From positions 1,302,001 through 1,366,000 of the forward strand of contig NZ_JBGKAD010000001.1 of the NCBI RefSeq assembly GCF_041361345.1: DNA of 64,000 nucleotides, written 5' to 3'. This document shows positions 50,452-58,307 of the stretch, one piece after another. The position numbers and the translations under genes were made by a program. The number at the start of each line of letters is the position of its first letter. Within the stretch, counting starts at the first letter, position 1. The notes beneath the pieces are model-generated. The model ran no database searches, was not told the DNA's origin, and worked only from the letters and a program-made list of their open reading frames with translations. Origin of the DNA: Halobaculum sp. MBLA0147. GTDB taxonomy: Archaea; Halobacteriota; Halobacteria; Halobacteriales; Haloferacaceae.

Positions 50452-53400
50452 TCAGCGTCGGCGTTCGCGGTAGTACAGACCGCCGACGACGAGCAGTACG
50501 CCGGTCAACAGCACCACGAGCGCGTTCGTCGCCCCGCCGTCGAGCCACTCGGGTGTCGGTGTCGTGGTCGCAGTCGGCGACGCCGTCGTGGTCGCCGTCG
50601 GGGACGGCGTGCGAGTCGGCGTCGCAGTGACAGTCGGTGTCGGACTCGGCGTCGGGGTCGGGGTCGGAGACGGTGTCGGCGTCGCGGTCGACTCGACCGT
50701 CACCGTGCCGACGACCGTCTCGCCGAGTGCGAGGCGGCGGTCGCCGGGGGCACCGAACTGCCGCCGGAACGACACCGTCCGAGTCTCACCGCCAGCGACG
50801 ATCACGCTCCGGACAGCGACGGTGGCGCCGTCGACACGGAGCCGGAGCGTCCGGCGTGCCTCGGCGACGCCGTCGTTCGCGAGGGTGACGGACAGCGCCA
50901 CGGGCTCGCCGGTCGCGACGCGACTGCGGTTCAGACTGGTCGCGGTGACACGTGCCCGGCCCGTGTCGGTCCCGACGGCGAACACCGAGAGCCCCGGCGA
51001 GACGGCTCGGAAGCGGTGACGACCCGCGTCTCGACCGACGTGTGCGGTCGCCAGTGCGACCCACTCGCCGTCGTGGAAGCGGAACAGTCGTACGTCGTCG
51101 GGTGCCACCCCGGCCGCCCGCAGGCGTTCGGCCGTGACGGAGAACTGGAACCCGACGGAGCCGATCTGGTCGTCGGGCACCGCGTGTCGGACGTTGAGGT
51201 AGCCGAGCACCCGCCCGGTCGTCCGGTCGTCGTCCGTGGCGCCACCCGTCGGCGCGTCGCCAGTCGTCGCGTCGTCACCGGTCGTCGTGTCTCCCGTCTC
51301 GGTCTGGTTCGTGCGGTTCGCGGTGGTGGTCGCGCTCGTGTCGTTCGAGCCATCCGGCGTGGTAGTCGCGGCACCACTCGCGGTGGTCCCGTCCCCGGCG
51401 GACGTGTTCACCGCGGTGAGCGCCGCGGGGGGCGTCGGAGAGACGGTCGTCCGGAGGCCGTACGCGGTGTCGTTCACCGACAGGCCGACGGACTCGACGA
51501 AGATCGTCTCGTTCGTGCCGGCACCGACGGGCGCGGTGACCCGTTGTCCGCGGCGAGCCTGCGTGACGCGCACGTCGACCGTCGACGCGTTCGACGGGTC
51601 GACGCGCACGTCGGCGCCGTCGTCGACGAACGTCCGTTCGGTCGTCACGGTCTCGGTACGGACGGTCGCGTTGGCGACGCTCGTCGCGTTCGACACCGAG
51701 TCGCTCCCGTTCGTCTCCGTCTCCGTCGCACCGTCCGTCGACGACTCCTCGTTCGTGTCGTCGCCGCCGGTCGACGGTCTGACCACGATCGGCTGCACGA
51801 CCGGGTCGTTCGACGCGTTGCCGTCGCCGACCCCGACGGCGTCGACGGTGCCGGTCGCCCCGTCGGTCCCCTCGGCGTCGGCGGCGGTGAGGACTCTGGC
51901 GACGTAGTCGCCGTCGGAGGGCGCCTCCCAGGTCGCGACGTACTCGAACGGCGCTGCGACCGTCGCGTCGGTCCTGCCGAAGTCGTCGAGTCGTAACGTC
52001 GTCGCGGACGGGCCGACGACCTCCACGACGAGGTCACCGCTGCCCGTGTCGACTCGTTCGTCGACCGACACGCGGACCGTGATCTCTCGTCCGTCCGTGT
52101 TCGTCGCGTTCACTCGCGTCACCGTCGGGGCAGTGTCGAGGACGAGCGTCGGCCCACCGGTCCCACCCGCGGTCGTCGTGTGGCCGACCCCGTCTGCGAC
52201 GGTGAGTGTGACGGGGTACGTCCCCTCACTGTCGGCGACACTCGCGTCGACCGTCGCGGTGCCGACGTACACGTCGTCGCCGTCCGGGTCCGACAACGCG
52301 ACCGTCCCGACACCGAGTCCGTCGACCGTCGCCGTCGGCGACACGACCGCCGTCTGGTCCGACAGTCGCGCACGGATCCGCACGGTGTCGTTCGCCCCGA
52401 CACGCCCGTCCGCGTCCGTCTCGTCGGTCAACTGGAGGCCCGAGACCGCCGGGCCCGTCGTGTCGAGTGCCAGCGTCTCGCTCGCCGGTGGGGTCGCGGT
52501 CCGGCGCTGCCCCGACCGATCCGTCGCGGCGACGGTGACGCTCCCGGCGACGGCGCCGTCGGTGCCCGCCGCACTCGCGTCGACCGTCGCAGTGCCGACG
52601 TACACGTCGTCGCCGTCCGGGTCCGAGAGGACGACCGTCCCGGCGCCGACGGCGGCGAGATCGGCCGTCACGGCGTCCGTCGGTGCACTCGGTGCCGGTA
52701 ACCCGGCCGTCGCGTCCGTCACGGTCGCAGTCACCCGTACCGTGTCGCCGCCGGTGACGGTGCCGTCGGCGTCCGTCGCGTCGCGGACGCGTACGTCCGA
52801 CACGGTCGGGCGTGTCGTGTCGAGCGTCAGATCGCCGTCGGTCGCCGTGGTCGTCGTCGTCCCCGTCGCGTCGGTCACGGTCACGTCGACGGTCCTCGTG
52901 CCGTCGCTCACACCCGGCGCGGACGTGTCGACGGAGGCGGTCGCGTCGTACACCCCGTCGCCGTCGCCGTCGGAGAGGTCGACGGCGGCGTCACCGCCGA
53001 ACGGCGAGAGGTCCGCCGTCACACTCGCCACGCCGCCGACTGCCGTCCCGGGTGCTCCGGCGAGCGCGTCCGTGGCGTTCACCGCGACACGCACGGACTC
53101 GTCGCCCGCGAGGAAGCCGTCTCCTGCGGTGCCGTCGTCGTCTGCGGGGTCGCCGTCGCCGGTGTCGGCGACGGTCGCCCGTCGAACACGTGGGGGCGCC
53201 GTGTCGACGGTCACGACGCCGGTCGCGGTCCTCGTCAGTCCCTCGCGGTCGGTGACGGTCACGTCGACTGCGGTGCTGCCGGCCGAGACCGCTCCGACAC
53301 CCGTGTCGACCGTGACGGTGGTGTCGTACACGTCGTCGCCGTCACCGTCGGTGAGGGGCACGTCGGCGGTGCCGTTCAGCCCCGAGAGGTCCGCCGTGAC

Positions 53401-56400
53401 CGCGTCCGACGCCAGTCCCGCGGTCGCGTCGGTCGCGTCGACGGCGACAGTCACTCGCTCGCCGTCACTCGCCACGGCCTCGGTCCCCCCGACGACCGTG
53501 TCGCCGTCGACGGCCGTCACGGAGACGCTCGCGACCGTCGGCGGTGTCGCGTCGAGCGTGGTCGTCGACGCGGCGGTGGCGGTGTTGTTCGCCCGGTCGC
53601 TCGCGGCGACGGCCACCGACACCGACCCGTCGGTCACGCCGGTCGCGTCCGCGTCGACCGTGACGGTCGTCTGGTACGTCCCGTCGGTGTCGCCGTCGGT
53701 GAGTGTCACGGCGTCGTGTCCGGCACCGAGCAGCCCGGAGAGGGTCGCCGTCACGGTCGTGGGAGCCACCCCAGTCGCGTCCCCGCCGGGGTCGGACGGG
53801 CTCGCAGTCACCGTCAGGCTCTCGCCGTCGGTCACGTCCCCGTCGGTGTCGCCGTCGGTGAGCGTCACCGCTCCGACCGTCGGGGGTGTGGTGTCGACCG
53901 TCACCGTCGGTGTCCGACTCGCGGTGTTGTTCGCGCCGTCTGCGACGGTGACGGCGAGTGTCACGTCGCCCTCCGTGGCGCCGGAGTCGGAGACCGTGAC
54001 ACTCGTCCGGTAGGTGTCCGGCTGGCCGCCGACGGGAGAGAGTGTCGCCTCGCTCGCGCCGCCGAGTGGTGACAGGTCCGCCGTCACCGCACTCGCGTCG
54101 AGTCCGGCCGTCGTGTCCGTCGCCTCGACGGTGAGAGTGAGCGTCTCGCCTCCGCGGAGCGTGTCGTCGTCTCCGACCGTGTCACTCTCCGTCAGTGTCA
54201 CCGACTGGACCGCCGGGTCCGTCGTGTCGAGCGTCACGTCTGCCCCGTCTGTCCCACTCAGTCGCGCGGCGTCGGTTCCAGTCACGTCCACCGTCACCGA
54301 GCCGTCACTCGCGGCCGTCGCCGCGTCCACCGTCGCGGTCGTCTGGTACGTCCCGTCCTCGTCGTCGTCGGTCAGCGAGACGGTCCCCGCACCGAGGGCA
54401 GAGAGGTCCGCGTCGACGCTCTCGACGGCCGAACCGGTGCCGTCCAGGTCTGCCGCGACGGTGACGGTCTCGCCGTCGCGCACGGTCGCGTCGGCGCCGT
54501 CGCCGCTCGTGACCGTCACGCCCGACACCGTCGGCGGGACGGTGTCGAGTGTCACCGTCACCGAGTCGTTCGTCGCCGCGTTCGCGGCACCGTCCGTCGC
54601 CGTCACTCCCACCGTCACCGCACCGTCGCTCGCGCCGCCGGCGTCGCCGTCGACGGGCTGTGTCGTGGTCGCGTACTCGGTTCCTCCCTGTGGCGACAAC
54701 GACACTGCGCCACCGAGTCCGAGGCCGGAGAGGTCGACGGTCACCGTGTCGACGGCGGTCCCAGGCGGTGTGTCGGTGACGTTCGCCCGGACGCGCACGT
54801 CGTCGCCGTCGGTCACGACGCCGTCCGCGTTCCGCGCGTCGACGACTGTCACGTTCGCCACCGTCGGTGCCGTGGCGTCGACCGTCAGCGTCCGACTGTC
54901 GTCCGAGCCGACGTTGTCGGCCACGTCCCCGGCGGTGACGTTCACCGCCACCGAGCCGTCCGTCGGCTCGGCGTTCGACCCCACGTCGACCGTCGCCTCG
55001 TAGGTGTCGTCGTCGTTGCCGTCGGTGAGCGTGACACTCCCGACACCGAGTGCGGCCGTGGTGGACCCGGCGAGTGTCACCCCGCCCGTCGCGACGCCGC
55101 TGCCTCCGTCCGTCACCGTGGCGGTGAGCGTGACACTGTCGCCGGCAGCCACGATTCCGTCGTCGGGTGTCCCGGCGTCGACACCGTCGTCGACCGTCAC
55201 GCCGGTGACGCTGGGTGCGGTCGCGTCGACCAGCAATGTCCCGGTGGTGTCCGTCCGCGTGTTCGTCTCCGCGTCCTCAACGGTGACCGTCACCGACCGG
55301 TCGCCCGCCGTCGCACTCGCGCCGACCGTCTCCGTCGTCGTGTAGTTCCCGTCGGCCGAGTCGACCGTCAGTCCGACGCTACTCCCGAGTCCGTACGCCC
55401 CGAGGTCGGCGGTCACGTCGATCGTACTCGTCGCGTCGGCGGCCGCGACCTCGACGAGCACCTCGTCGCCCGGCTTCACCGCACCGTCGCCGTCGGTCGC
55501 GTCGACGAGCCGGAGTCCGGAGATCGTCGGGCGCGTGGAGTCGAGACTCAACGTCGCCGTACTCGTCACCTCGCGTGTCTGTCCCTCCGTGTCCGTCGCG
55601 GTCACGTCGACGGCGTAGTCGCCGTCCGACGCCGCCTGTGTGCGGTCGACCGTGACGGTACCGTCGTAGGTGTCGTCGCCGTCTCCGTCGTCGAGTGACA
55701 CTGCCGATCCGGCGCCGAACGCCGAGAGGTTCGCTGTGACCGACGACACGCCGGCCGTGTCCGCGAGTTCGACGGCCACACGGATCTGGTCGCCGTCGCC
55801 GACGACCCCGTCGCCGCCGGACTCGTCCGAGACCCCGATCGCGTCGGCGGCCGTCGCGGCGCCGACGAACGCCGGCGGCCCACCGTCGAAGGCCGGGCCG
55901 GTCTGGGCGTCGCCGTTCGCGTTTCCGGTCGCGTCCGTCCCGGTCAGGCTCACGCTCGTCGCACCGTCGGTCCCGCTCGCCGTCGCCGACAGGTTCACCC
56001 GGTACGTGTCTCCGCCGACGTTCGACAGCGTCCTCGTCCCGAGTCCGTACGTCGAGAGGTCCGCCGTGACGCGCCCGACACCCGCGCCGCCGTCCGTCAC
56101 GGTCGCTTCGACGGTGACGTTCTCCCCGACCACCACGGTGCCGTCGGCGTCTTCGTCGGTCACGGAGACGCCCGAGAGCGACGGCGCCGTCGTGTCGACG
56201 GTGACCGTCCCGACCGTCGTCGTGTTCGTCACACCCTCGGTGTCCGCGACCGTCGCCGTGATCGTCACCGCCCCGTCGCTCACGCCGGCGGCGTCGCCGT
56301 CGACCGTCACCGTCCTGTCGTAGGTCCCGTCGGTGTCACCGTCGGTGAGCGTGACGGCGTCGTTGCCCGTCCCGAGCACGCCCGAGAGGTCCGCCGTCAC

Positions 56401-57924
56401 CGCGCCGGAGTCGACGCCGCTCGTGGCGTCGGTCGGCGCGACCGCCACGCGCAGTTCGTCGCCGTCACCGACGACACCGTCCGTCGCGTCCGTCTCCGAC
56501 CCGCCGACGACCTCCGTCTCCGCGATCGGTTCCGGATCGACCGCCGGTGGCGTGGTGTCGACGGTGGTGCTACTCGTCTCACCCGCCGCACCGTCCTTCG
56601 TCAGGCCGCTCGTGTCGGCGGCGGTCTGGAGCGTCGCGGTGTAGTCACCGTCCGCCGTCAACTCGACGGTCGCCGTGTACGTGTACGGTCCCGTCCCGCT
56701 CTCCGTGAAGACCCCCTCCGAGACCGTCTGGCCGTCCGGTCCGGTCACCTGGACCTCGATCGAGCCGAGCTGCTCGGAGCTGTCGACGGAGAGTTCGACG
56801 CTCTGTGCGTCTGGAGTCGAGACGTTCGTCAGCGAGAACCCAGAGATGTCCGGCTCCGTGTTCAACGCCAGGCTCCCGGTCGTCGCCGTCCCCTCGGTGC
56901 CGAGCGTGTCGGCGGCCGTCACGCCGACGGTGTAACTCCCGTCGGCGTTCGCCTGTGACTCGTCGACGGTGACGGTCGCGTCGTAGGTGCCGTCGGTGTT
57001 CCCGTCGGTGAGTGCCACGTCGGTGCCGGCACCGAACGCCGACAGGTCGGCAGTGACGGTGTCGACGCCGACGCCGGTGTCCGTCACGTCGGCCGCGACA
57101 CGCACCGTGTCCCCGTCACCGACTGGATCCACCCCCGTGGCGTTCTCCAACACGAGATTCGACAGCGACGGCGGCGTGGTGTCGAGTCGGAGCGACCCGC
57201 CGCTGGTCGCGCTCGCGAGGTTCGTCGGTGTGTCCGTGTCGTTCGCGTAGACCGAGACGGCGTAGCTCCCGTCCGAGTCGGCCGCCGCGGCGTCGACGGT
57301 GACGGTCGTCGCGTACGTGTCACCGCCGGTGTTCGACAGCGTCGCGTTCCCCGACCCGCCGAACGCCGACAGGTCGGCGGTGACGTTCTCGACGGTCGAG
57401 GTCCGGTCCACGACACCCGTCGCCTCAACCCGCACCGAGTCGCCGTCGGTCACGTCGCCGTCGCCGTCCGTCGCGTCCGACAGCGTGAGGTTCGACTGTG
57501 TGAGCACCGGCGGCGTGGTGTCGCGGGTGAGTTGGTCTCTGATCGTCGTCCCGTCGGCGCCGTCGTTCCCCGCAGCGTCTTTCGCCTCCCCGAGTTCCGC
57601 GACGTACGTCGTGTCCGTCGCGGGTGTGAACGTTCCGACGTACTCGTAGCTGCCGCCCAGATCCGTCTCGGTGAACGTACCTTCGTTCAGCGACGTGTAG
57701 AACCCCTCGTCGTCGTCGACGACCACGAGAACGTCCGTCAACTGCTCGTCACTCTCGAAGCTGACCTCGATCGTGTCGTCGGCGACCTCCGTGACGACGA
57801 AGTTCGAGATCGTCGGTGCCGTCGTGTCCGCGACCGCCCTCGCAGGTCGCACGTCGGCACCCGTACTCGCGTCGGCTCCCGTACTCACGTCGGCTCCCGT
57901 ACGTAGTGTGGTGTCGACACCCAC
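50452..57924 (-). CDS. giant modular cell-surface protein: about 18 Ig-like modules, PGF-pre-PGF domain, Thr/Pro stalk, C-terminal membrane anchor
   Basis: 2,490 residues from GTG 57924, but this start lacks a signal peptide; the signal lies in another frame upstream (57885-58121). From about residue 35 to 2045 the protein is a chain of about 18 beta-sandwich modules of roughly 110 residues, each opening with a D-T-x-P-P-x-V type motif and containing VTADLS...G and LTDGDTDGTY. Three (first, fourth, last) are a different subtype (SNFVVTEVADDTIEVSF-like). Next come a Thr/Ser/Asn-rich stretch with many N-x-T/S sequons, then a PGF-pre-PGF domain (LGYLNVRHAVPDDQIGS to SPGLSVFAVG, about 2230-2305). 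A CARDB-like domain, a (T-P) stalk and one membrane segment with RERRR tail follow. No PGF-CTERM motif. Probably adhesion or matrix. Confidence 0.85.
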   Translation of the reverse strand: MGVDTTLRTGADVSTGADASTGADVRPARAVADTTAPTISNFVVTEVADDTIEVSFESDEQLTDVLVVVDDDEGFYTSLNEGTFTETDLGGSYEYVGTFTPATDTTYVAELGEAKDAAGNDGADGTTIRDQLTRDTTPPVLTQSNLTLSDATDGDGDVTDGDSVRVEATGVVDRTSTVENVTADLSAFGGSGNATLSNTGGDTYATTVTVDAAAADSDGSYAVSVYANDTDTPTNLASATSGGSLRLDTTPPSLSNLVLENATGVDPVGDGDTVRVAADVTDTGVGVDTVTADLSAFGAGTDVALTDGNTDGTYDATVTVDESQANADGSYTVGVTAADTLGTEGTATTGSLALNTEPDISGFSLTNVSTPDAQSVELSVDSSEQLGSIEVQVTGPDGQTVSEGVFTESGTGPYTYTATVELTADGDYTATLQTAADTSGLTKDGAAGETSSTTVDTTPPAVDPEPIAETEVVGGSETDATDGVVGDGDELRVAVAPTDATSGVDSGAVTADLSGVLGTGNDAVTLTDGDTDGTYDRTVTVDGDAAGVSDGAVTITATVADTEGVTNTTTVGTVTVDTTAPSLSGVSVTDEDADGTVVVGENVTVEATVTDGGAGVGRVTADLSTYGLGTRTLSNVGGDTYRVNLSATASGTDGATSVSLTGTDATGNANGDAQTGPAFDGGPPAFVGAATAADAIGVSDESGGDGVVGDGDQIRVAVELADTAGVSSVTANLSAFGAGSAVSLDDGDGDDTYDGTVTVDRTQAASDGDYAVDVTATDTEGQTREVTSTATLSLDSTRPTISGLRLVDATDGDGAVKPGDEVLVEVAAADATSTIDVTADLGAYGLGSSVGLTVDSADGNYTTTETVGASATAGDRSVTVTVEDAETNTRTDTTGTLLVDATAPSVTGVTVDDGVDAGTPDDGIVAAGDSVTLTATVTDGGSGVATGGVTLAGSTTAALGVGSVTLTDGNDDDTYEATVDVGSNAEPTDGSVAVNVTAGDVADNVGSDDSRTLTVDATAPTVANVTVVDARNADGVVTDGDDVRVRANVTDTPPGTAVDTVTVDLSGLGLGGAVSLSPQGGTEYATTTQPVDGDAGGASDGAVTVGVTATDGAANAATNDSVTVTLDTVPPTVSGVTVTSGDGADATVRDGETVTVAADLDGTGSAVESVDADLSALGAGTVSLTDDDEDGTYQTTATVDAATAASDGSVTVDVTGTDAARLSGTDGADVTLDTTDPAVQSVTLTESDTVGDDDTLRGGETLTLTVEATDTTAGLDASAVTADLSPLGGASEATLSPVGGQPDTYRTSVTVSDSGATEGDVTLAVTVADGANNTASRTPTVTVDTTPPTVGAVTLTDGDTDGDVTDGESLTVTASPSDPGGDATGVAPTTVTATLSGLLGAGHDAVTLTDGDTDGTYQTTVTVDADATGVTDGSVSVAVAASDRANNTATAASTTTLDATPPTVASVSVTAVDGDTVVGGTEAVASDGERVTVAVDATDATAGLASDAVTADLSGLNGTADVPLTDGDGDDVYDTTVTVDTGVGAVSAGSTAVDVTVTDREGLTRTATGVVTVDTAPPRVRRATVADTGDGDPADDDGTAGDGFLAGDESVRVAVNATDALAGAPGTAVGGVASVTADLSPFGGDAAVDLSDGDGDGVYDATASVDTSAPGVSDGTRTVDVTVTDATGTTTTTATDGDLTLDTTRPTVSDVRVRDATDADGTVTGGDTVRVTATVTDATAGLPAPSAPTDAVTADLAAVGAGTVVLSDPDGDDVYVGTATVDASAAGTDGAVAGSVTVAATDRSGQRRTATPPASETLALDTTGPAVSGLQLTDETDADGRVGANDTVRIRARLSDQTAVVSPTATVDGLGVGTVALSDPDGDDVYVGTATVDASVADSEGTYPVTLTVADGVGHTTTAGGTGGPTLVLDTAPTVTRVNATNTDGREITVRVSVDERVDTGSGDLVVEVVGPSATTLRLDDFGRTDATVAAPFEYVATWEAPSDGDYVARVLTAADAEGTDGATGTVDAVGVGDGNASNDPVVQPIVVRPSTGGDDTNEESSTDGATETETNGSDSVSNATSVANATVRTETVTTERTFVDDGADVRVDPSNASTVDVRVTQARRGQRVTAPVGAGTNETIFVESVGLSVNDTAYGLRTTVSPTPPAALTAVNTSAGDGTTASGAATTTPDGSNDTSATTTANRTNQTETGDTTTGDDATTGDAPTGGATDDDRTTGRVLGYLNVRHAVPDDQIGSVGFQFSVTAERLRAAGVAPDDVRLFRFHDGEWVALATAHVGRDAGRHRFRAVSPGLSVFAVGTDTGRARVTATSLNRSRVATGEPVALSVTLANDGVAEARRTLRLRVDGATVAVRSVIVAGGETRTVSFRRQFGAPGDRRLALGETVVGTVTVESTATPTPSPTPTPTPSPTPTVTATPTRTPSPTATTTASPTATTTPTPEWLDGGATNALVVLLTGVLLVVGGLYYRERRR

Positions 57925-57947
57925 CCGACGCCCGTACCCACGTCGGC
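57841..57947. repeat. 18-bp repeats at the frame break of the giant surface protein
   Basis: Minus-strand units of the form GCCGACGTGAGTACGGGA occur at 57894-57877, 57876-57859 and, partly, 57858-57841 in the main frame. A fourth copy at 57947-57930 lies in the signal-peptide frame. The 35-base spacer between them (57929-57895) is one short of a multiple of three. Confidence 0.85.
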
Positions 57948-58121
57948 ACGACGACTCCGGTCGACGGGGTCGCCCGGCGGCTCGCCACCACCGACGACCG
58001 CCGACCCGCCGCCACCAGCAGGAACACTGGCCTCGGCGACGTTCCCGTCGACCGCGACGGCACCGACACTCCCGATTATCACGACCGCGACGACCAACAG
58101 CGAGAGTAGTCTCCGAGACAC
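57885..58121 (-). CDS. signal-peptide ORF of the giant surface protein, out of frame with the main ORF
   Basis: 78 codons from GTG 58121: MSRRLLSLLVVAVVIIGSVG is a clear Sec signal, then AVAVDGNVAEAS and a Gly-rich segment that reaches RADVGTGVG, similar to the GADVSTG repeats of the main ORF in the next frame. The frame closes 16 bases after the main ORF has opened. A one-base deletion in the 35-base spacer explains everything. GGGTTATTAC at 58161-58170 is the promoter. This is the natural 5' part of the 50452-57924 gene; alternatively a programmed frameshift or sequencing error. Confidence 0.7.
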   Translation of the reverse strand: MSRRLLSLLVVAVVIIGSVGAVAVDGNVAEASVPAGGGGSAVVGGGEPPGDPVDRSRRADVGTGVGWVSTPHYVREPT

Positions 58122-58160
58122 GTGTAGTACTCTGAACTCGTCGTGAGTGTACGCTCCACA

Positions 58161-58170
58161 GTAATAACCC
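58161..58170 (-). promoter_or_regulatory. TATA box of the giant surface-protein gene
   Basis: GGGTTATTAC (minus strand) lies about 43 bases before the GTG at 58121 and 240 before the main ORF, confirming that the signal-peptide ORF is the translational start. Confidence 0.65.
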
Positions 58171-58307
58171 CCACTGACTCGTTCTCGTGAACGATACTCG
58201 GAGTACTAGACAGGACTCGACCCACGACGCCCGCGACCCGCGACTGTCGGCGCCACGACGCCCGCGAACCGCGACGGTTGAAGTGTCGTACGCTCCAACG
58301 ACGGCCG

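Follow-up and report, generated by a model that had tools for sequence, protein, structure and literature searches.

Organization of the surface-protein locus

The window, a 64,000-nucleotide stretch of DNA, corresponds to bases 1302001-1366000 of contig 1 of a 4.29-Mb genome assembled in 6 contigs. Base composition, the PGF-pre-PGF domain described below, and relatives such as Haloferax point to a haloarchaeon. Its minus strand carries two overlapping open reading frames that together have the features of a giant surface-protein gene. The upstream ORF (58121..57885, minus strand) starts with GTG, comprises 78 codons, and ends with the TGA at positions 57887-57885. Its translation, VSRRLLSLLVVAVVIIGSVGAVAVDGNVAEAS...REPT*, includes a typical Sec-like signal peptide, VSRRLLSLLVVAVVIIGSVGAVAVDG. 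The downstream ORF (57924..50452, minus strand) encodes the body of the protein in 2,490 codons. The body is in the -1 frame relative to the signal frame and overlaps it ahead of the signal-frame stop. A TATA-like TTATTA sequence recognized by eye only (58167..58162, minus strand) is located 41 nt upstream of the GTG and is the probable archaeal promoter of the gene. Direct repeats of 26 bases (58218-58278), 92% alike and 31 bases apart, occupy the intergenic DNA that separates this gene from a divergent FEN1-like gene.

In the codon-usage HMM, the signal frame covers positions 57925-58106 and the body frame covers 50692-57837, with the repeat region between them left undecided. GC content at the three codon positions fails to discriminate between frames in the linker, which is rich in glycine, alanine, and proline and has a high GC content in every frame. 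The codon bias of the body is still strong across approximately 7.1 kb (HMM score 1062). A second apparent frame change at 50550-50690 was rejected as an artefact of threonine- and proline-rich codons, and the ORF is open throughout.

The body contains approximately 16 or more repeats of about 110 amino acids with DTTPP-like motifs, and is rich in threonine and aspartate. Searches of the body sequence against Pfam and the PDB returned no match. AlphaFold modelled the first 240 residues with modest confidence (mean pLDDT 60.7), and the first domain alone is usable. This domain is predicted to be a beta-sandwich, and its PDB matches, which are of modest confidence, are generic Ig/FN3 sandwiches, including domains of the adhesin SiiE. 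Residues 2233-2317 (50974..51228, minus strand) match the PGF-pre-PGF domain (NCBIfam TIGR04213) with an E-value of 6.9e-12 and a score of 45.6 bits against a cut-off of 28. As read from the translation, a threonine- and proline-rich stretch is followed by the hydrophobic C-terminal segment NALVVLLTGVLLVVGGLYY (50470..50526, minus strand) and then by RERRR. The hydrophobic segment is likely to be a membrane anchor. The predicted features of the gene product are most likely those of a long cell-surface stalk or adhesin.

Repeats in the linker between signal peptide and body

The linker contains a tandem array of 2.9 copies of an 18-bp repeat (57850..57902, minus strand), which encodes TGADVSTGADASTGADV in the body frame. 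A related copy (57932..57949, minus strand) encodes ADVGTG in the signal frame. In the best rotation, this copy matches the array at 16 of 18 bases; 200 dinucleotide shuffles yielded no match as good. Held to one fixed rotation, it agrees less well, at 13 of 18 bases, a value attained by 52 of 1000 shuffles. Successive copies are spaced by 18, 18, 35, and 18 bases. The fourth and fifth copies are 68-76% alike and thus related, not identical; the copies flanking the frame break share exact identity in short stretches only.

The site of the frame change is a 35-base degenerate repeat step (57897..57931, minus strand) that is a net one base short. It is defined by the copy spacing, by the HMM change between 57925 and 57837, and by the distance from the GTG at 58121 to the end of PTISNF, the first conserved motif of the body, which is 323 nt or 108 codons minus one base. 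The base loss is assigned to this interval as a whole. Because the repeat peptide ADV[S/G]TG occurs in both frames and the step is 35 instead of 36 bases, the signal-peptide and body ORFs evidently derive from one ancestral ORF whose linker has become shorter by a net one base. The possibility that the signal peptide belongs to a separate small gene was rejected on the grounds of the repeat peptide common to both frames and the existence of fused homologues. The DNA matches that the 330-base region 57841-58170 has elsewhere, both in this genome and among relatives, are short, rich in GC, and attributable to chance, and none of those inspected in this genome is a related signal-peptide gene.

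Orthologues from two assemblies of the same genus (G001, locus L019, and G003, locus L020) run uninterrupted from the signal peptide into the body, with open frames of 2,592 and 2,596 codons, respectively. Genes for UDG and a metallo-beta-lactamase flank both orthologues, as they do here, and the G003 orthologue additionally shares the FEN1/XPG-type nuclease neighbour. Signal peptide and body also form one open frame in the homologues of G108, G066, G132, G106, and Haloferax larsenii; the N-terminus of the Haloferax larsenii homologue is that of the G106 homologue, and the two should probably be counted as one. A homologue was also found in G064; the intact genes considered here are those with a resolved N-terminus, which this one lacks. 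With one genome per species in the comparison, the out-of-frame state was found in none of the homologues examined (those of G001, G003, G108, G066, G132, G106, and Haloferax larsenii). Because all of these are intact, the frame break is private to the genome studied here, which departs from the family trait of a signal peptide in frame with a PGF-pre-PGF body.

The linker sequence differs between all the species compared. In the G001 orthologue the linker is also repetitive, with an unrelated 30-bp tandem unit (L019:12496-12628). The linker seems to gain repeats repeatedly, and by comparison of these sequences the frame break is placed in a fast-changing, repetitive segment of the gene. An earlier note on this DNA had described a signal peptide and a body in separate frames, related 18-bp repeats in both, and a spacer of 35 bases, one below the frame-keeping 36. 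The two ORFs, the codon HMM, the repeat peptides (ADVSTG for the body frame, ADVGTG for the signal frame), and the copy spacing confirm this description, and the intact orthologues uphold the proposal that one gene is split between its signal peptide and its body.

Frame breaks elsewhere in the assembly

The background of frame breaks was estimated by a codon HMM scan of the window and 60 further 20-kb stretches, approximately 1.26 Mb in total, with flagged cases read by eye. In simulations of one-base deletions, the HMM saw 118 of 120 and flagged 95 of 120. The first 464 kb gave 12 flagged changes, nearly all of which, like nearly all of those in the whole scan, could be put down to normal transitions between genes or to low-complexity sequence. 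Apart from the break studied here, the approximately 1.26 Mb contained two that are clear. One splits a universal stress protein gene over two frames (L081:961-1438; contig 1 of this genome, near 501,175), both halves of which match Pfam Usp. The other splits a gene for a TrmB-like regulator (L093:9208-9894; contig 1, near 1,419,570), whose second half matches DUF7437. Genes of the Usp and TrmB/DUF7437-like types look dispensable, and no frame break in an essential gene was noticed in the approximately 1.26 Mb scanned. A possible further frame change lies beside a conserved haloarchaeal gene (L031:18499-19339) and is uncertain, as are a few short cases. The background is low, of the order of ten frame breaks per genome, and could reflect either a handful of recent null alleles or a handful of consensus errors left in the assembly. 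The completeness of the genome is 97.4%, compared with 97% for a same-genus assembly.

Origin of the frame break

The earlier note had offered four explanations of the break: a mutation, an assembly error, a programmed -1 shift, and phase variation. The first two stand, and the last two are disfavoured. In programmed -1 ribosomal frameshifting, the ribosome would link both frames during translation. The geometry is suitable for such a shift: the body is in the -1 frame and overlaps the signal frame before its stop. Programmed frameshifting exists in archaea, in the fucA1 gene of Sulfolobus solfataricus, and has been reported for some haloarchaeal viruses (PMC8211752). As in fucA1, the 5' part of the gene is in frame 0, the 3' part is in frame -1, and the ORFs overlap in an archaeon. 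However, known programmed cases depend on a slippery site and usually have a conserved frameshift position, the latter being among the criteria of the GeneTack survey (PMC3711429). Between the start and the stop (58121-57885) there is no slippery heptamer of the form X XXY YYZ, whether strict or relaxed, and the position of the break is conserved in no homologue. This explanation is very unlikely, the least probable of the four. In phase variation, changes in the linker length caused by the repeats would move the signal peptide into and out of frame and turn the surface display of the protein on and off. This process typically acts on surface proteins, tandem repeats are positioned right at the break, and out-of-register exchange between the related copies in the two frames could alter the frame. 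The surface protein and the tandem repeat at the break resemble bacterial phase variation by slipped-strand mispairing, but the period here is a multiple of three and there is no hypermutable tract. Changes in the number of 18-base units preserve the frame, and the region 57840-58121 holds no short non-triplet tract, with just one run of four identical bases. The short extent of exact identity between the copies flanking the break and the intact state of every homologue examined also argue against phase variation, which is improbable. It is still less probable, in its specific form, that this haloarchaeon toggles the display of a giant Ig-repeat surface protein by out-of-register exchange between linker copies in two frames.

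The main rival to a real indel is a local consensus or assembly error in the GC-rich repeat, with the gene intact in the organism and the protein exported. Such an error accounts for the sequence as well as a real indel does. It fits the private nature of the break among intact homologues, the undamaged state of the rest of the ORF, the difficulty of assembling a repeat linker, and the presence of two other single frame breaks in approximately 1.26 Mb of the assembly. Single validated frameshifts are often errors, and the authors of the GeneTack survey, a large study of frame transitions in prokaryotes, anticipate that most singletons, though validated by BLAST, reflect sequencing errors (PMC3711429). 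Against this stand the low background of frame breaks despite an HMM that sees nearly all simulated deletions, the lack of a long homopolymer at the break, and a genome completeness on par with that of the same-genus assembly. The two other breaks in dispensable-looking genes and the lack of any in an essential gene were counted in favour of real mutation. The repeat context favours real slippage, yet it also carries an assembly risk. A consensus error is a serious possibility, to which we assign somewhat less than an even chance.

The best explanation, at about even odds, is a real, non-programmed single indel that arose in a repeat linker prone to slippage and cut the body off from its export signal. 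On this reading, the gene encodes a giant haloarchaeal surface protein of Ig-like repeats that is secreted and anchored in the membrane, and degenerate tandem repeats make up its N-terminal linker, which joins the signal peptide to the first domain. A single indel with a net loss of one base, probably caused by replication slippage in the GC-rich linker, would have put the signal peptide out of frame. The break falls in a repeat linker that is repetitive in the G001 orthologue too, as slippage would predict. Translation from the normal start would stop after 78 codons and the body would not be exported; at most, it might be made without a signal peptide from an internal start, such as the GTG at 57924. 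The event is probably recent, because the remaining gene shows no visible decay. From the sequence, we infer that the base is truly missing in the organism, that it was lost by slippage, and that export of the protein was lost with it.

The observation of the break is correct and is more than chance, and nothing unusual is needed to explain it: the repeat linker of a surface protein of known type carries a frame break private to this genome. The break occurs in one genome while the homologues are intact, and there is no recoding signal; in these respects it resembles the singleton frame-broken genes of the GeneTack survey (PMC3711429). It differs from them in that it falls within a repeat linker directly after the signal peptide and leaves the other 2,490 codons open. 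If the base is truly missing, a single event in the repeat-rich linker has cost the strain the export of a giant surface protein, a small example of haloarchaeal surface change. If the break is an error, the annotation should show an intact gene. In either case, gene callers can be expected to report a protein without a signal peptide and thereby to mislabel its location.

The protein is similar to haloarchaeal PGF-pre-PGF Ig-repeat surface proteins (TIGR04213) in its N-terminal signal peptide, tandem domains of approximately 110 amino acids, PGF-pre-PGF domain, and C-terminal hydrophobic anchor. Unlike in those homologues, the signal peptide is out of frame here. Despite the presence of the PGF-pre-PGF domain, the body has no C-terminal PGF motif at window positions 50452-50560, where EWLDGG is found instead. 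The C-terminus differs in this from the Haloferax larsenii homologue, which has the PGF motif DTPGFG; the G001 orthologue is also without a PGF motif. Judging from these C-termini, this genus may have replaced archaeosortase processing by retention of the membrane anchor.
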